Under the pieces are notes generated by a model. That model had not been told where the DNA came from, made no database searches, and saw nothing but the letters and a program-made list of their open reading frames with translations. Shown piece after piece: positions 34,840-51,669 of a stretch of 64,000 bases of DNA. Made by a program: the position numbers and the translations under genes. Source of the stretch: Desulfobacterales bacterium (GTDB taxonomy: Bacteria; Desulfobacterota; Desulfobacteria; Desulfobacterales; Desulfobacteraceae); assembly GCA_023143455.1 (NCBI GenBank), contig JAGLHT010000008.1, positions 1-64,000 on the forward strand. Direction: 5' to 3'. How positions within the stretch are numbered: the stretch's first letter is position 1; the number at the start of each line of letters is the position of its first letter.

Positions 34840-35649
34840 TTAATAAAGATCATCTCTTCTGTTAGGTAAGAAATACTTCATTCTGTGGTTACGTATATTT
34901 TTTAGTTTTTCGCCGGATAATTTAGAGATTAGCAGTCCTTCTTTTTTTTCTGTGTATTTTGAAATGATTTTGCCGTCAGGCCCAATAATTACTGCAACTC
35001 CAGGAAATAACAAGCCTGCTCCATTCTCTCCGGTCTGATTACAGGCTGCAATAAAAATTCCATTATCAAATGCTCTTGCTGTTAAATGCCGCATCCAGGA
35101 TTGATATTTTTCTTTGGCTGTTCCCCTTGGTGATGCATGGGGAATAAAGACCAAGTCAGCCCCTTTTACAGCCATGGATGTGGTAAGTTGTGGAAAGTGA
35201 GCATCATAACATAGCTGGATTCCAAAATATAAATCATTTGATTTGTCCTGACATATTTCAATTTTATTGCCCCTTGACAATGTTTTTTTTTCAGGTGGTG
35301 CTGTGTGGGTTTTTTTGTAAATAAAAAAGGAATTGTCAGGCATTATGGCAAAATGGGAGGCATAAATTTTATTATCTGATTCTTTGTGTGCTAAGCCTGC
35401 GACAATTGTGATAGATTTATTTGTAGAAATCTTTCGCAGAGTGCTTATAAGTTCATCAGACAAAGGCTTTGCAATGGGCAGTAGTTTTTTTCCGGATGCA
35501 TAACCAGTAAGGTTCATTTCCGGAAAAAGAATTAATGACGCGCCTTTTTTAGAAGCCATGGCTGTAAGTTTAATACATTTTGAAAGATTTTCTTCATACA
35601 TACCGCAAATGGAATTTTGAACAGCAAGTGCGATTGTAATATCTTTCAT
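34840..35649 (-). CDS. Carbon-nitrogen hydrolase (nitrilase superfamily)
   Basis: Hydrolyses a C-N bond in an amide or nitrile; the exact substrate is unknown. The 269 residues carry the Glu-Lys-Cys catalytic triad: LILFPEMNLTGY (Glu near 42), KKTHTAPPEKK (Lys near 113) and GIQLCYDAHFPQ (Cys near 148). The length and the LFPEMNLTGY motif fit the amidase/omega-amidase-like branches. It starts 4 bases inside the 3' end of the ahb gene, so the two are coupled, although no shared pathway is evident. Confidence 0.9.
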   Translation of the reverse strand: MKDITIALAVQNSICGMYEENLSKCIKLTAMASKKGASLILFPEMNLTGYASGKKLLPIAKPLSDELISTLRKISTNKSITIVAGLAHKESDNKIYASHFAIMPDNSFFIYKKTHTAPPEKKTLSRGNKIEICQDKSNDLYFGIQLCYDAHFPQLTTSMAVKGADLVFIPHASPRGTAKEKYQSWMRHLTARAFDNGIFIAACNQTGENGAGLLFPGVAVIIGPDGKIISKYTEKKEGLLISKLSGEKLKNIRNHRMKYFLPNRRDDLY

Positions 35650-36101
35650 ACTTTGAACTGTGCGCTTATTTTAAAAAGGTCTGTTGCAGGTAGATTAAGG
35701 ATTTTCTTAATTCCGGTTTTTGTTGAGATCTCTTTTAAATTTTTTTCGATTGTTTCGCGGGATTTTGCAATAAATGTAAACCATATATTATAATCATGTT
35801 CTCTTACATAGTTGTGCGTAACACCAGAGTAAGAGTTTACAATCTTTGCAAATGATTCAACATCTTTTTTTGGGACTTTTGCAGCACAAAGAGTGCTTTT
35901 ATATCCAATTTTATCAGGGCTAAAATTTCCGCCAATGCGCCTTATGATATTGTTTTCTTTCATTCTTTCAATTTTTTTGATTACAAGGTCAGAAGGTAGA
36001 TTAAGGTCACTTGCAATCTTGGAAAAAGGTTTTGCATCTGTTGGGAAGTTTGACTGTATCTTGTTTAGTATTTGTTTGTCTGTGTCATCTAATGAATACA
36101 T
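35646..36101 (-). CDS. Siroheme decarboxylase subunit, AhbA/AhbB family
   Basis: Decarboxylates siroheme to 12,18-didecarboxysiroheme on the alternative heme route of sulfate reducers and archaea. I start it at the ATG at 36101, giving 151 residues (MYSLDDTDKQ...). The frame is open 11 codons upstream, but that part adds nothing family-like. An AsnC/Lrp-type winged helix (about 5-60) is followed by an RAM-like fold with THNYVREHDYNIWFTF, whose H-x-Y-x-x-W-F pattern marks AhbA/AhbB/NirDLGH rather than plain Lrp regulators. I cannot separate AhbA from AhbB. The partner subunit is not in this window. A true Lrp regulator is the main alternative. Confidence 0.82.
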   Translation of the reverse strand: MYSLDDTDKQILNKIQSNFPTDAKPFSKIASDLNLPSDLVIKKIERMKENNIIRRIGGNFSPDKIGYKSTLCAAKVPKKDVESFAKIVNSYSGVTHNYVREHDYNIWFTFIAKSRETIEKNLKEISTKTGIKKILNLPATDLFKISAQFKV

Positions 36102-36138
36102 AATTGACCCAAAATTAATATAAATACAACACATAAAA

Positions 36139-43524: not shown

Positions 43525-44598
43525 CTAATGGGAATGTGCGTGTCTGGTTTGTTGCCATAAGTTAGTTAATCCGTTATAGATTATAAGTGCTGTCAATAAA
43601 ATAGCTGCAACAAGTCGGATATTATATGGGATCAGTTCTGATGCCATGCCCACAGTAACGTTTGCCTGAATGTCATAGAATTTGTACACCCAATCAACAA
43701 AAAAGCCGATGGTGATTGAGCAGACAGATATCATTGTCAGATATATTACAAGAGTTCTATTGTTAAATACATTTCTTACAATATTAATAGTTGCAGCATT
43801 GGTTGCAGGACCTGCAAGTAGAAAAACCAGTGCTGCGCCAGGGTTTAACCCTTTTAGTATTAATGCTGCTGCAATTGGTGTTGAGGATGTAGCACAGACA
43901 TACATTGGAATACCAACTATTAGCATAACAAGCATTGAGAATAATTGGTGTTCATTAGCCAGTTCTGTAATATTATCAGGGAAAAAAAAGGTGATGATAC
44001 CCGCTATAAAAATCCCTATTACAAATGGTTTGGCAATATCTGTCAGAAGTTCACCATAAGCATATTTAAGGCCGACTATCAGTTTCTTAATTAATTTTTC
44101 TTTGGTTTTCGGTGCAACTGCACCTGAGTTGGTACAGCCTCAGCCTTTTGTTTCTTCTATTGAAGTATTTTTTACAACTGTATTTTCGGTTCCCCAAAAG
44201 TTTTGTGCAATTCCTGTTGAAACTGCTGTAATAAATCCTGCAATCGGGCGAATTATTGTCAAGATCGGGTCAAGCATGGCATAAGACACAGCAATGGAGT
44301 CAACACCTGATTCTGGTGTGGCAATCATAAAAGAGAGTGCTGCTCCACTATTGGCCCCCTGTTTTTTTAACCCTATTGCTACCGGTACAACACCACAGGA
44401 ACATAATGGAATTGGGATTCCAAAAAGGGCAGATAAAATTACAGGTTTTATTCTACCGGATCCTAGATATTCTTTAATTTTGTCTGCTTTAAAAAAAACA
44501 TATAAAATTCCTGCTATAAAAAAACCAAACAGCATGTATATCGCAACATCCAGGTAAATATTCCAGGATTCAATTAAAATTTGATATATTGTAATCAT
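43525..44598 (-). CDS. Metal/organo-arsenical-type permease (DUF318, SO_0444-like), probable selenoprotein
   Basis: A membrane permease of 357 residues if the in-frame TGA at 44142-44140 is read as selenocysteine at residue 153. The two halves are in the same frame and each has four or so helices. The N-half has FGIPIPLCSCGVVPVAIGLK and ATPESGVDS; the C-half has GIPMYVCATSSTP and GPATNAATINI, the two matching signatures of this permease family. The TGA lies in the cytoplasmic linker as K-G-U-G-C-T, a U-x-C redox or metal motif. A SECIS-like hairpin follows at the right distance. An ArsR-type repressor gene lies 34 bases upstream. Copper/zinc or arsenic efflux is the likely role. A nonsense-mutated pseudogene is the alternative but less likely. 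Confidence 0.8.
44111..44139 (-). promoter_or_regulatory. SECIS-like hairpin in the permease gene
   Basis: Reading the minus strand, 15 bases after the TGA comes GGTGC-AGTT-GCACC (44124-44111), a perfect 5-bp stem with a 4-base loop holding G. The distance and loop fit the bacterial SECIS recognised by SelB, and match the two hairpins in hdrA and floxD in this window. Confidence 0.72.
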
Positions 44599-44632: not shown

Positions 44633-44977
44633 TTAGTGTCTGACATGGTCAAGACTCATGTTAATCGTTGATATGACATGTTCATCTTCAAGGGAATAGT
44701 AAATCACTTTACCTTCTCTCCGATTTTTCACAATTTTTAATGTCCGCAAAATACGAAGCTGGTGGGATATTGCCGAATCTGTTTGACCACAAATTGTAGC
44801 AATCTCGCAAACACAATGCTCTTGGTTTAAGATAGCAAGAACTATTTTTAGCCTGGAAGGGTCACTTAATGCTTTGAAAATATCTGCCATTTGGTTTATC
44901 TCTTCCTGGGCTGGAATCGTTTTTACAGTTTCCTCAACTTTTTCTTTATTAATACAGTTTTTTGAGCATATTTCCAT
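44633..44977 (-). CDS. ArsR/SmtB-family metal-sensing repressor
   Basis: A 114-residue winged-helix regulator that releases DNA on binding metal. It has ALSDPSRLKIVLAIL, the metal motif CVCEIATICGQ in the alpha3 region (CxC as in ArsR/CadC-type sensors), the recognition helix SAISHQLRILR and YYSLEDEHV at the C-terminus with the DxH pattern of alpha5 sites. Extra cysteines lie at the N-terminus (ICSKNC). It precedes the permease on the same strand and has an inverted-repeat operator at its own promoter, so it probably represses both genes until metal or arsenic appears. Confidence 0.93.
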   Translation of the reverse strand: MEICSKNCINKEKVEETVKTIPAQEEINQMADIFKALSDPSRLKIVLAILNQEHCVCEIATICGQTDSAISHQLRILRTLKIVKNRREGKVIYYSLEDEHVISTINMSLDHVRH

Positions 44978-48085: not shown

Positions 48086-48131
48086 AAAATCATTATAATG
48101 CAAATAATAAAGAGTGGTTTTAGGAGATAAA

Positions 48132-51100
48132 ATGTCCCAAGAAAAAATAGGTTCAATAATGGTTGTTGGTGGAGGTATATCTGGTATGCAGGCTGCGCTT
48201 GATGCTGCTGATTCAGGGTACTATGTTTATCTTGTTGAAGAGTCACCGTCCATTGGCGGTATCATGGCACAACTTGATAAGACCTTTCCAACCAATGATT
48301 GTGCAATGTGAATTATTTCACCTAAACTGGTCGAGGTCGGCCGGCATATAAATATTGAACTTCTAACTCTTACTGAAGTTAAAAATGTTACAGGTGAAGC
48401 AGGCAATTTTAGTGTTGATGTTGTTCAACACCCAAGATATGTTGATATGGATAAATGTATTGCCTGTGGTCTGTGCGCTGAAAAATGTCCAAAAAAAGTG
48501 GATAATGAATATGAGGAAGGACTTGGAAAAAGAAAAGCAATATACGTTAAATATCCTCAGGCAGTTCCTTTAAAATATTCAATTGATGCTAAAAATTGTA
48601 TTTATCTTACACTGGGTAAATGTAAGAAGTGTGAAGAAGTCTGTCCAACAAAAGCTATTAATTATGAAGATAAGGCTAAAGAAGTTACATTAAATGTCGG
48701 CTTAATCATAATTTCATCTGGTTGCAAACCCTATGATCCTGGTGAACATGATATTTACGGCTACAAAAATAATAAAAATATTGTTACAAGCCTTGAGTTT
48801 GAAAGAATGCTTTCCTCTTCAGGTCCTTATGGAGGGCACCTTGTAAGACCTTCAGATAATAAAGAGCCAAAGAAAATAGCATGGTTGCAATGTGTAGGCT
48901 CAAGAGATAATCATTTGGGTGCAAATGGGTATTGTTCATCAGTATGCTGTACCTATGCAGTAAAAGAGGCGATGCTTGCCAAGGAACATAGTCATGATTC
49001 TTTGGACACTGCTATTTTTTATATGGATGTGAGAACCCATGGCAAAGATTATGAGCACTTTTACAATAGAGGAAAAGATGAGTCTGGTATCAGATTTGTT
49101 AAATCAAGAGTGCAGAATATTGTGCCTGATTCTGAAACCGGCACACAGATTATTCAATATATAGATGAAACAGGTAAAAGACAAAAAGAAGAATTTGATA
49201 TTGTAGTATTGTCTGTTGGTTTGTGCATTGGCAATGAATCAATTGAACTTGCTAAAAAAATGAATATTGGTCTTGATCACTATAATTTTGTTACAACAAA
49301 CAGCTTTGAGCCCGTTAAAACTTCCAAGCCAGGTATTTACGTCTGCGGAGCATTTGAAGCGCCTAAAGATATCCCTTCTTCTGTTATTGAGTCCTCTGCT
49401 GCTGCAGGTATGGCTGGTATTAACCTTGCTGAATCCAGGTGGTCTTTAACCAAAACAAAAGAAAAAATTGAAGAAATAAATGTTACAGGTGAAGCCCCAA
49501 GAATTGGTGTTTTTGTCTGTAGGTGTGGTACTAATATTGCCGGTGTTGTAGATGTTCCTGCCGTTGTTGAGATGGCTAAAAAGCTCCCTTATGTTGAGTT
49601 TGCTCAGGAGAATATGTTTTCCTGTTCCCAGGATACCCAGGATGCAATTACAGATGTTATAAAAGAGAAAAAGCTAAACAGAGTTGTTATTGCTGCATGT
49701 ACTCCAAAAACCCATGAAGGTCTTTTCCAGGAAACTTTAACAAATGCAGGCATAAATAAATATCTTTTTGATATGGCAAACATTCGTAATCAGTGCTCCT
49801 GGATTCATGCCGAGGCAAAAGAAGAAGCAACTGAAAAAGCAAAAGACCTTGTTAGAATGACAACTGCTAAAGTGGCATTACATGCACCCCTTGAAGAGCC
49901 AAAGCTTGAGATTGATCAATCAGGTCTGGTTGTTGGAGGCGGAGTTGCCGGTATTACAGCTGCGCAAACTCTTGCCCAGCAGGGATATCATACTCATTTA
50001 ATTGAAAAAGAAAGCAAGCTTGGAGGTCAGGCAAACAATCTTTATAAAACATGGCAGGGTGAAGATATTCAGACAAATCTGTCTGCTTTGATCAAATCTG
50101 TTGAAAAAAATGATCTGATTGAGATTCACTTAAATACTGAAATTACTGGTGTTGACGGTTTTGTTGGCAGTTTTGAAACTCATATTAATAAAAATAGCAA
50201 AGATGAGACTTTAAAACATGGTGTTACCATTATAGCAACAGGTGCATCAGAATTTAAGTCGGATCAATACCAGTACAATGAAGATGAAAGAGTTATAACT
50301 GGTCTTGAATTTGATAAATTGTTAGTAAATGAAAATTTGGATTTAAAAGAAAAAAATACTGCGGTTTTTATCCAATGTGTGGGATCAAGGATTAAAGAAA
50401 GACCATATTGTTCAAAAGTATGCTGTACTCAATCTATCAGAAATGCTTTGCAGCTTAAAAAATTAAACCCGCAAATGAATGTTTACATTCTTTACAGAGA
50501 TATGCGTCCTTTTGGATTAAGAGAGGATTTATATACTGAAGCCAGGAATATTGGGATTCAATTTATTAAGTTTGATTTTAATGAAGATTTTTCAGTTAAT
50601 TCTGAGGAGGATTATCTGCAAATTCTTTTTACAGATACTTCTTTAAGACGCAAGATGGAGATTAAAGCGCAATTGGTTGTCTTAGCTTCTGCTATTATTC
50701 CGGAAAAAAATAACAAACTTGGACCCTTATATAAAGCCACCCAAAATGCGGATGGCTTCTTCATGGAAGCCCATGCAAAACTTAGACCGGTAGATTGTTC
50801 AACAGATGGTGTTTTTATATGTGGACTTACCCATGCACCAAAACCAATAGATGAATCCATTTCCCAGGCCCAGGCAGCCGCAACAAGAGCTGTCACTCTT
50901 CTTGCTAAAAAAACCATGAATATGCAGGGAACCGTTGCTTATGTTGATCAGGGGATATGCAGCTCGTGCGGTGTTTGTGTATCTATCTGTCCTTTTAGTG
51001 CGCCTACATTCACTAAAGAAGGTCGTTTTGAAGGTAAAGCCGAGATAAACCCAGTTCTCTGTAAAGGATGCGGTCTATGCGTTGCTTCTTGTAGATCCGG

Positions 51101-51246: not shown

Positions 51247-51669
51247 ATGACAGAAAAGAAAATTAAAATTATTAGCTTTTTATGTAATTGGTGCAGCTAT
51301 GGTGCTGCTGATCTTGCAGGTGTATCAAGGATGCAGTATCCGGCAGATATACGTGTAGTCAGAATCCCCTGTACCGGTCGAATGAGTCCTAAATTCATAC
51401 TATCTGCATTTCGTGAGGGTGCTGATGGCGTATGGGTTTCAGGCTGACATCCTGGTGAATGTCATTACCTGGATGGTAATTATTATGCAAGAAGGAAATT
51501 TGCTCTTGCTGGCAATCTTTTAGAACACATGGGAATTGAAAAAGACCGTTTGCATTTCTCTTGGGTATCCAGTGCTGAAGCTAAAAAGTTTGTTGATGTT
51601 GTTAAGGAAGTTACAGAGGCAGTAGAGGCACTTGGTCCAAATAATAAATTTGTTAAATTACAAGCTTAA
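51247..51669 (+). CDS. floxD: FloxD / MvhD-like iron-sulfur protein, selenocysteine-containing
   Basis: Electron-transfer subunit linking the Flox flavoprotein to HdrA; homologue of MvhD with a 2Fe-2S cluster. The frame runs through a TGA at 51445-51447, giving 140 residues with Sec at 67 in [15 protein letters not shown]. MvhD proteins have VSGCHPG with Cys, and the Sec form is known in anaerobes. Other ligands are [15 protein letters not shown] and IPCTGR. A hairpin follows the TGA. It lies between hdrA and floxC in the operon. The selenocysteine reading is well supported by family alignment from memory and by the second hairpin of the same type. Confidence 0.92.
51448..51480 (+). promoter_or_regulatory. 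SECIS-like hairpin in floxD
   Basis: Sixteen bases after the TGA, ATTACC (51464-51469) pairs perfectly with GGTAAT (51475-51480) around the loop TGGAT. This gives a 6-bp stem and a G-containing loop, as in the other two cases. Confidence 0.75.

Follow-up and report, generated by a model that had tools for sequence, protein, structure and literature searches.

How is a gene to be read when its only interruption is a TGA codon, and what might its product do with a selenocysteine (Sec), the uncommon 21st amino acid, at that place? This question is raised by a predicted metal permease of a Desulfobacterales bacterium, a relative of sulfate reducers, encoded on the minus strand of the window (the whole stretch of 64,000 nucleotides analysed here). 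Its open reading frame starts with an ATG at 44598 and ends with a TAG at 43527-43525, and the sole in-frame stop codon between them is the TGA at 44142-44140. A preliminary description of this DNA had joined two halves of a DUF318/SO_0444-like permease in one frame through this TGA. The coordinates it gave, 43525-44598, are exact, with the gene running from 44598 to 43525, as is the perfect hairpin 15 bases after the UGA (44124-44111), and re-reading of the sequence confirmed the K-G-U-G-C-T context in the central linker. As argued below from comparisons of sequences, the UGA at codon 153 almost certainly encodes Sec, and we estimate a probability of about 0.9 that the locus encodes a selenoprotein of the SO_0444 Cu/Zn efflux family that exports soft metals.

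In profile searches, the joined permease matched the family NF033936 (SO_0444 Cu/Zn efflux) with 384.6 bits over profile positions 1-349 of 351, the curated cut-off being 300 bits, and it is also a member of PF03773 (ArsP_1). When searched singly, the two halves each matched complementary stretches of both profiles. Past the UGA no in-frame start occurs until an ATG 69 codons on, within conserved domain and membrane sequence, which makes an independent gene in the second half unlikely. An identity as SaoE (NF040736), a related permease named together with the Sao selenoproteins, was rejected with a score of 183.9, below the cut-off of 325. A second PF03773 permease of the same genome (contig C53) is a distant paralogue with no UGA. 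The features of the locus are collected in Table 1.

Table 1. Position of the permease gene, its neighbour and the elements discussed in the text
Feature	Position	Strand	Basis
Predicted SO_0444-family metal efflux permease, 357 residues, Sec at 153	43525..44598	-	NF033936 match and read-through translation
Putative Sec UGA, codon 153 (site B, linker, K-G-U-G-C-T)	44140..44142	-	Column with Cys in 75 and UGA in 42 of 123 homologues
C66-S67-C68 codons, transmembrane CSC motif (site A)	44395..44403	-	Cys here; UGA at first Cys in 18/123 homologues
SECIS-like hairpin GGTGC-AGTT-GCACC, 15 nt 3' of UGA	44111..44124	-	Perfect 5-bp stem
ArsR/SmtB-family regulator with CadC-like thiolate and CzrA-like D-x-H...H-x-x-H sets	44633..44977	-	Profile match, alignments

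Evidence on the meaning of the UGA comes from the family itself. We extracted and aligned 123 distinct homologues, in which the counts are of sequences and not of independent events. At the column of the window's UGA (site B) there is Cys in 75, UGA in 42 and another residue in six, so that 117 of the 123 keep Cys or UGA, as would be expected of a selenoprotein column and as the preliminary description had proposed to look for. A second column behaves alike: at the first Cys of the transmembrane motif P-[IL]-P-L-C-S-C-G (site A), 105 homologues have Cys and 18 have UGA, with no exception. Nearly all internal UGAs in the alignment sit on Cys columns. In four further genes a UGA stands where the window has C155 (PGCGUP); this PGCG-U-P linker position belongs to L120, L121, L134 and L135, a separate branch of the permease family. 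One more gene has its UGA at another linker position, and the sole remaining core UGA falls upstream of the likely start. Nor are relatives split by assorted stop codons: the 32 permease matches with internal stops in 98 related genomes all have TGA, and among 395 genomes of the phylum the internal stop was TGA in 17 matches, TAA in one and TAG in none. The linker-site TGA recurs in independent assemblies, isolate genomes included (Desulfospira joergensenii, L081), and the bias of divergence towards third codon positions persists 3' of the UGA (0.60 versus 0.25 and 0.16).

The hairpins tell a similar story. Among the genes with UGA at site B (42 of 42) or at site A (18 of 18), each has a hairpin of at least four pairs at the distance typical of a bacterial SECIS element, and the first two bases of its loop include a G; of the 105 Cys forms at site A, 54 satisfy this loop rule. 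Against randomisation of synonymous codons, the best hairpins of the UGA genes averaged -7.1 kcal/mol at site B (randomised -2.5) and -9.5 kcal/mol at site A (randomised -2.4), whereas for the Cys forms there was almost no gap between observed and randomised values (-2.2 versus -1.5 and -2.6 versus -2.2). All 26 genes with the window-type hairpin preserve its four inner pairs, with compensatory double changes in the inner stem (C-G to U-A, G-C to A-U). By itself, the window hairpin could arise by chance given the encoded protein sequence (p = 0.31 in the same randomisation); a single hairpin is therefore no proof, and the case rests on the comparative evidence.

The decoding machinery is present in part in the window's own genome, which carries a tRNA-Sec with anticodon UCA and selA (612 bits); in this 79%-complete assembly, searches found neither selB nor selD. 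The best selB match, C70:3-671 at a contig edge, turned out on checking to be EF-Tu. Both missing genes are present in a genome of the same genus (G001), selB occurs in 31 of the 33 relatives checked, the same genus included, and selD in 7/7. The gaps are best read as missing contigs. Each of these seven selD genes has an internal TGA of its own (G001:C143, G018:C238, G038:C34 and others), and thus SelD of this bacterial family is probably a selenoprotein too. The presence of Sec in this SO_0444/DUF318 permease, as first proposed, is hence strongly supported by the Cys/UGA column, by the restriction of internal stops to TGA bar one TAA, and by selA and tRNA-Sec. Codon 153 would be read as Sec through the hairpin 15 nt downstream, tRNA-Sec and SelB, a route well supported by comparison. 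A genome-wide recoding of UGA was discarded, since TGA also terminates long open frames in the window, such as 35646-36134.

Two other readings of the TGA have to be weighed. It could be a nonsense mutation or a miscalled base, in a pseudogene or an erroneous assembly: the source is a fragmented metagenome-assembled genome, and its own hairpin is not significant alone. The same TGA, however, stands in a third of the distinct homologues (42/123), from independent assemblies and isolates, in the company of SECIS-like hairpins with compensatory changes, and coding constraint carries on past it. On these sequence comparisons such an error is refuted for the permease family at large by repeated occurrence, and for the window gene we regard it as hardly credible. 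The UGA could also act as a true stop or as a selenium switch, yielding mainly the 152-residue half, with full length only when selenium is plentiful. Readthrough of UGA in selenoprotein genes does vary with selenium supply, and the N-terminal half holds the CSC motif; but the second half has no start codon for 69 codons, the whole protein is made in close relatives whose column has Cys, and constraint on the half 3' of the UGA is as strong as the upstream half would allow, which together make this reading very unlikely.

Sec in this family is not without precedent. The preliminary description knew of no well-described Sec form of the permease, yet a 2026 review (PMC13188914) lists an SO_0444 family Cu/Zn efflux transporter (NF033936, UxC, WP_014809615.1) as a GenBank-annotated selenoprotein with one Sec. 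The window gene is therefore a new member of a recorded, barely analysed selenoprotein family: the review does not analyse the position of the Sec, and there are no double-Sec forms in its list. WP_014809615.1 belongs to the same NCBIfam family as the window permease and has one Sec in a U-x-C motif, which fits either the linker U-G-C, as in the window, or the transmembrane U-S-C. Shewanella oneidensis depends on the founding member, SO_0444, to grow under Zn and Cu stress, according to a paper that does not call it a selenoprotein (PMC3219624); in Nitratiruptor, Cd and Cu induce a homologue (PMC10092412). The permease is not named as a selenoprotein in the main text on Desulfobacula-related metagenome-assembled genomes with Sec and Pyl (PMC8318568), nor in the deep-Sep main text (PMC12013277).

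What is new here is that Sec has two places in the SO_0444 family: besides the linker, it is used at the first Cys of the transmembrane CSC. Five genes have Sec at both: L036, L043, L075, L081 (Desulfospira joergensenii) and L139; a count based on the tree gives four, as the linker UGA of L139 falls outside the columns used there. In our list the permeases with two UGAs appear as L036/L074, L043/L080, L075, L081 and L139. A FastTree tree made without both sites, of modest support, requires at least ten changes between Sec and Cys at each of them. The searchable literature, outside of which most subscription journals lie, yielded no account of Sec at two sites or of double-Sec forms.

As to how the protein is built, AlphaFold predicts two halves made of helices (mean pLDDT 74) and, between them, a disordered linker (residues 139-165) that contains U153-G-C155. 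The column of C66-S-C68, invariably Cys or Sec at its first position among the homologues, sits where a short helix of repeat 1 begins in the model. In carriers of the ion-transporter superfamily, the substrate-binding tips are likewise at the starts of short helices. For this model VIA-align puts ArsB at the top, with 266 residues aligned at Z 14.5, and then come DASS, CNT, YdaH and TRAP carriers; this is a level that helical membrane proteins can attain without being related. Foldseek gave no match to the model at E up to 0.001, and solved structures searched by the permease sequence gave none. The model is thus suggestive, although not conclusive, of an ion-transporter (ArsB/DASS-like) arrangement of two membrane repeats, and the CSC motif in it is probably a metal site. 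The linker would be on the cytosolic side, its lysine-rich flanks being the sole basis for this placement. Other members of the family carry longer Cys clusters in the linker (e.g. CPVDGCCDG...C), followed by a His run. The protein of the window ends in a His-rich tail, RHAHSH (43528-43545, minus strand), with HAHSH and HALSH common in close relatives, and this tail may be a further metal-binding element.

The choice of metal is hinted at by the neighbouring gene, an ArsR/SmtB-family regulator which adjoins the permease in the same direction and is conserved in 33 of 41 loci; the SO_0444 gene, for its part, adjoins a putative ZntR orthologue. Alignments to SmtB and CadC, and to CzrA over the matched range, place its ligands at C4, C8, C55 and C57, and at D98, H100, H111 and H114, which we take to be the CadC thiolate site and the CzrA zinc site, respectively. 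The neighbour carries both of the ligand sets seen among the CadC, SmtB and CzrA regulators, the N-terminal plus helix-3 Cys set and the D-x-H...H-x-x-H set, and nearly all of the 33 relatives keep both. Equivalog models, CmtR and BigR among them, scored below their cut-offs. From its sequence, this regulator probably controls the permease and points to Zn/Cd-type metals rather than arsenicals, and as a CadC/SmtB-like repressor it would probably switch the operon on when such a metal is in excess.

The arrangement of the model, the Zn/Cu and Cd/Cu data on homologues and the ligand sets of the regulator together suggest an exporter of thiophilic metals, in which metal binding and transport by the window permease would proceed as follows. 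The cytosolic U153-G-C155 pair would capture thiophilic ions such as Cu(I), Zn or Cd, and the captured ion would be handed from the linker to C66-S-C68 for export. A selenol stays deprotonated and would exchange metal faster than a thiol, which could be of help in a sulfidic cell. In the family as a whole, Sec would then occupy two metal-handling points, having been repeatedly gained and lost, and in the members with both the ion would pass from selenol to selenol. We hold the capture by the linker to be an even bet, and give the same weight to this family-wide picture; the hand-over, the sidedness and the advantage of selenium are all proposed in the same conditional sense. A linker ligand is in any case not indispensable, because one homologue with Sec in the membrane motif (L083) shows neither Cys nor Sec in the linker.

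The main rival to this scheme accepts the Sec as real and sees in the linker a redox switch, where a selenenylsulfide between U153 and C155 would gate export with no role as metal ligand. U-x-C pairs are able to form such a bond, and many Sec proteins are redox proteins. Nevertheless, the Cys at +2 of the linker site is missing in L033 and L063, the longer Cys clusters and the His run elsewhere in the family look metal-binding, and Sec is also found at the transmembrane CSC motif, where the role of a metal ligand is more natural; a redox switch is possible in our opinion, if doubtful. It is unlikely, on the other hand, that the exporter handles arsenicals in the manner of ArsP instead of Zn, Cd or Cu. 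The name of PF03773 (ArsP_1), the ArsR-family neighbour and the top structural match to ArsB all speak for arsenicals, and they are opposed by an NF033936 match well above its cut-off, by the CadC-like and CzrA-like ligand sets of the regulator, and by the sole genetic data for the family, which concern Zn and Cu (PMC3219624).

Known selenoproteins are mostly redox enzymes; here Sec is found in a transporter, at positions resembling metal ligands. If the export of thiophilic metals through these sites is true, a selenol acting as a direct ligand in the substrate path of a transporter would be an unusual role for Sec. Closely related bacteria offer, at two sites, natural pairs of Cys and Sec forms, and with them ready-made comparisons for the contribution of selenium to metal handling. 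There is an annotation problem as well, as an ordinary gene caller splits this gene, and dozens like it, into two broken halves.

Two more genes of the window, hdrA and floxD, had been cited in the preliminary description as apparently decoding UGA as Sec; both UGAs are indeed in the sequence, and both have G-loop hairpins. The hdrA-like gene, starting at 48114 on the plus strand, has its TGA at 48309-48311 with the hairpin 3' of it, and likely encodes a Sec-containing HdrA. The floxD/MvhD-like gene, from 51247 on the same strand, has its UGA at 51445-51447 in the context VSG-U-HPGECHY, again with a hairpin 3', and is likely a Sec protein of known type.
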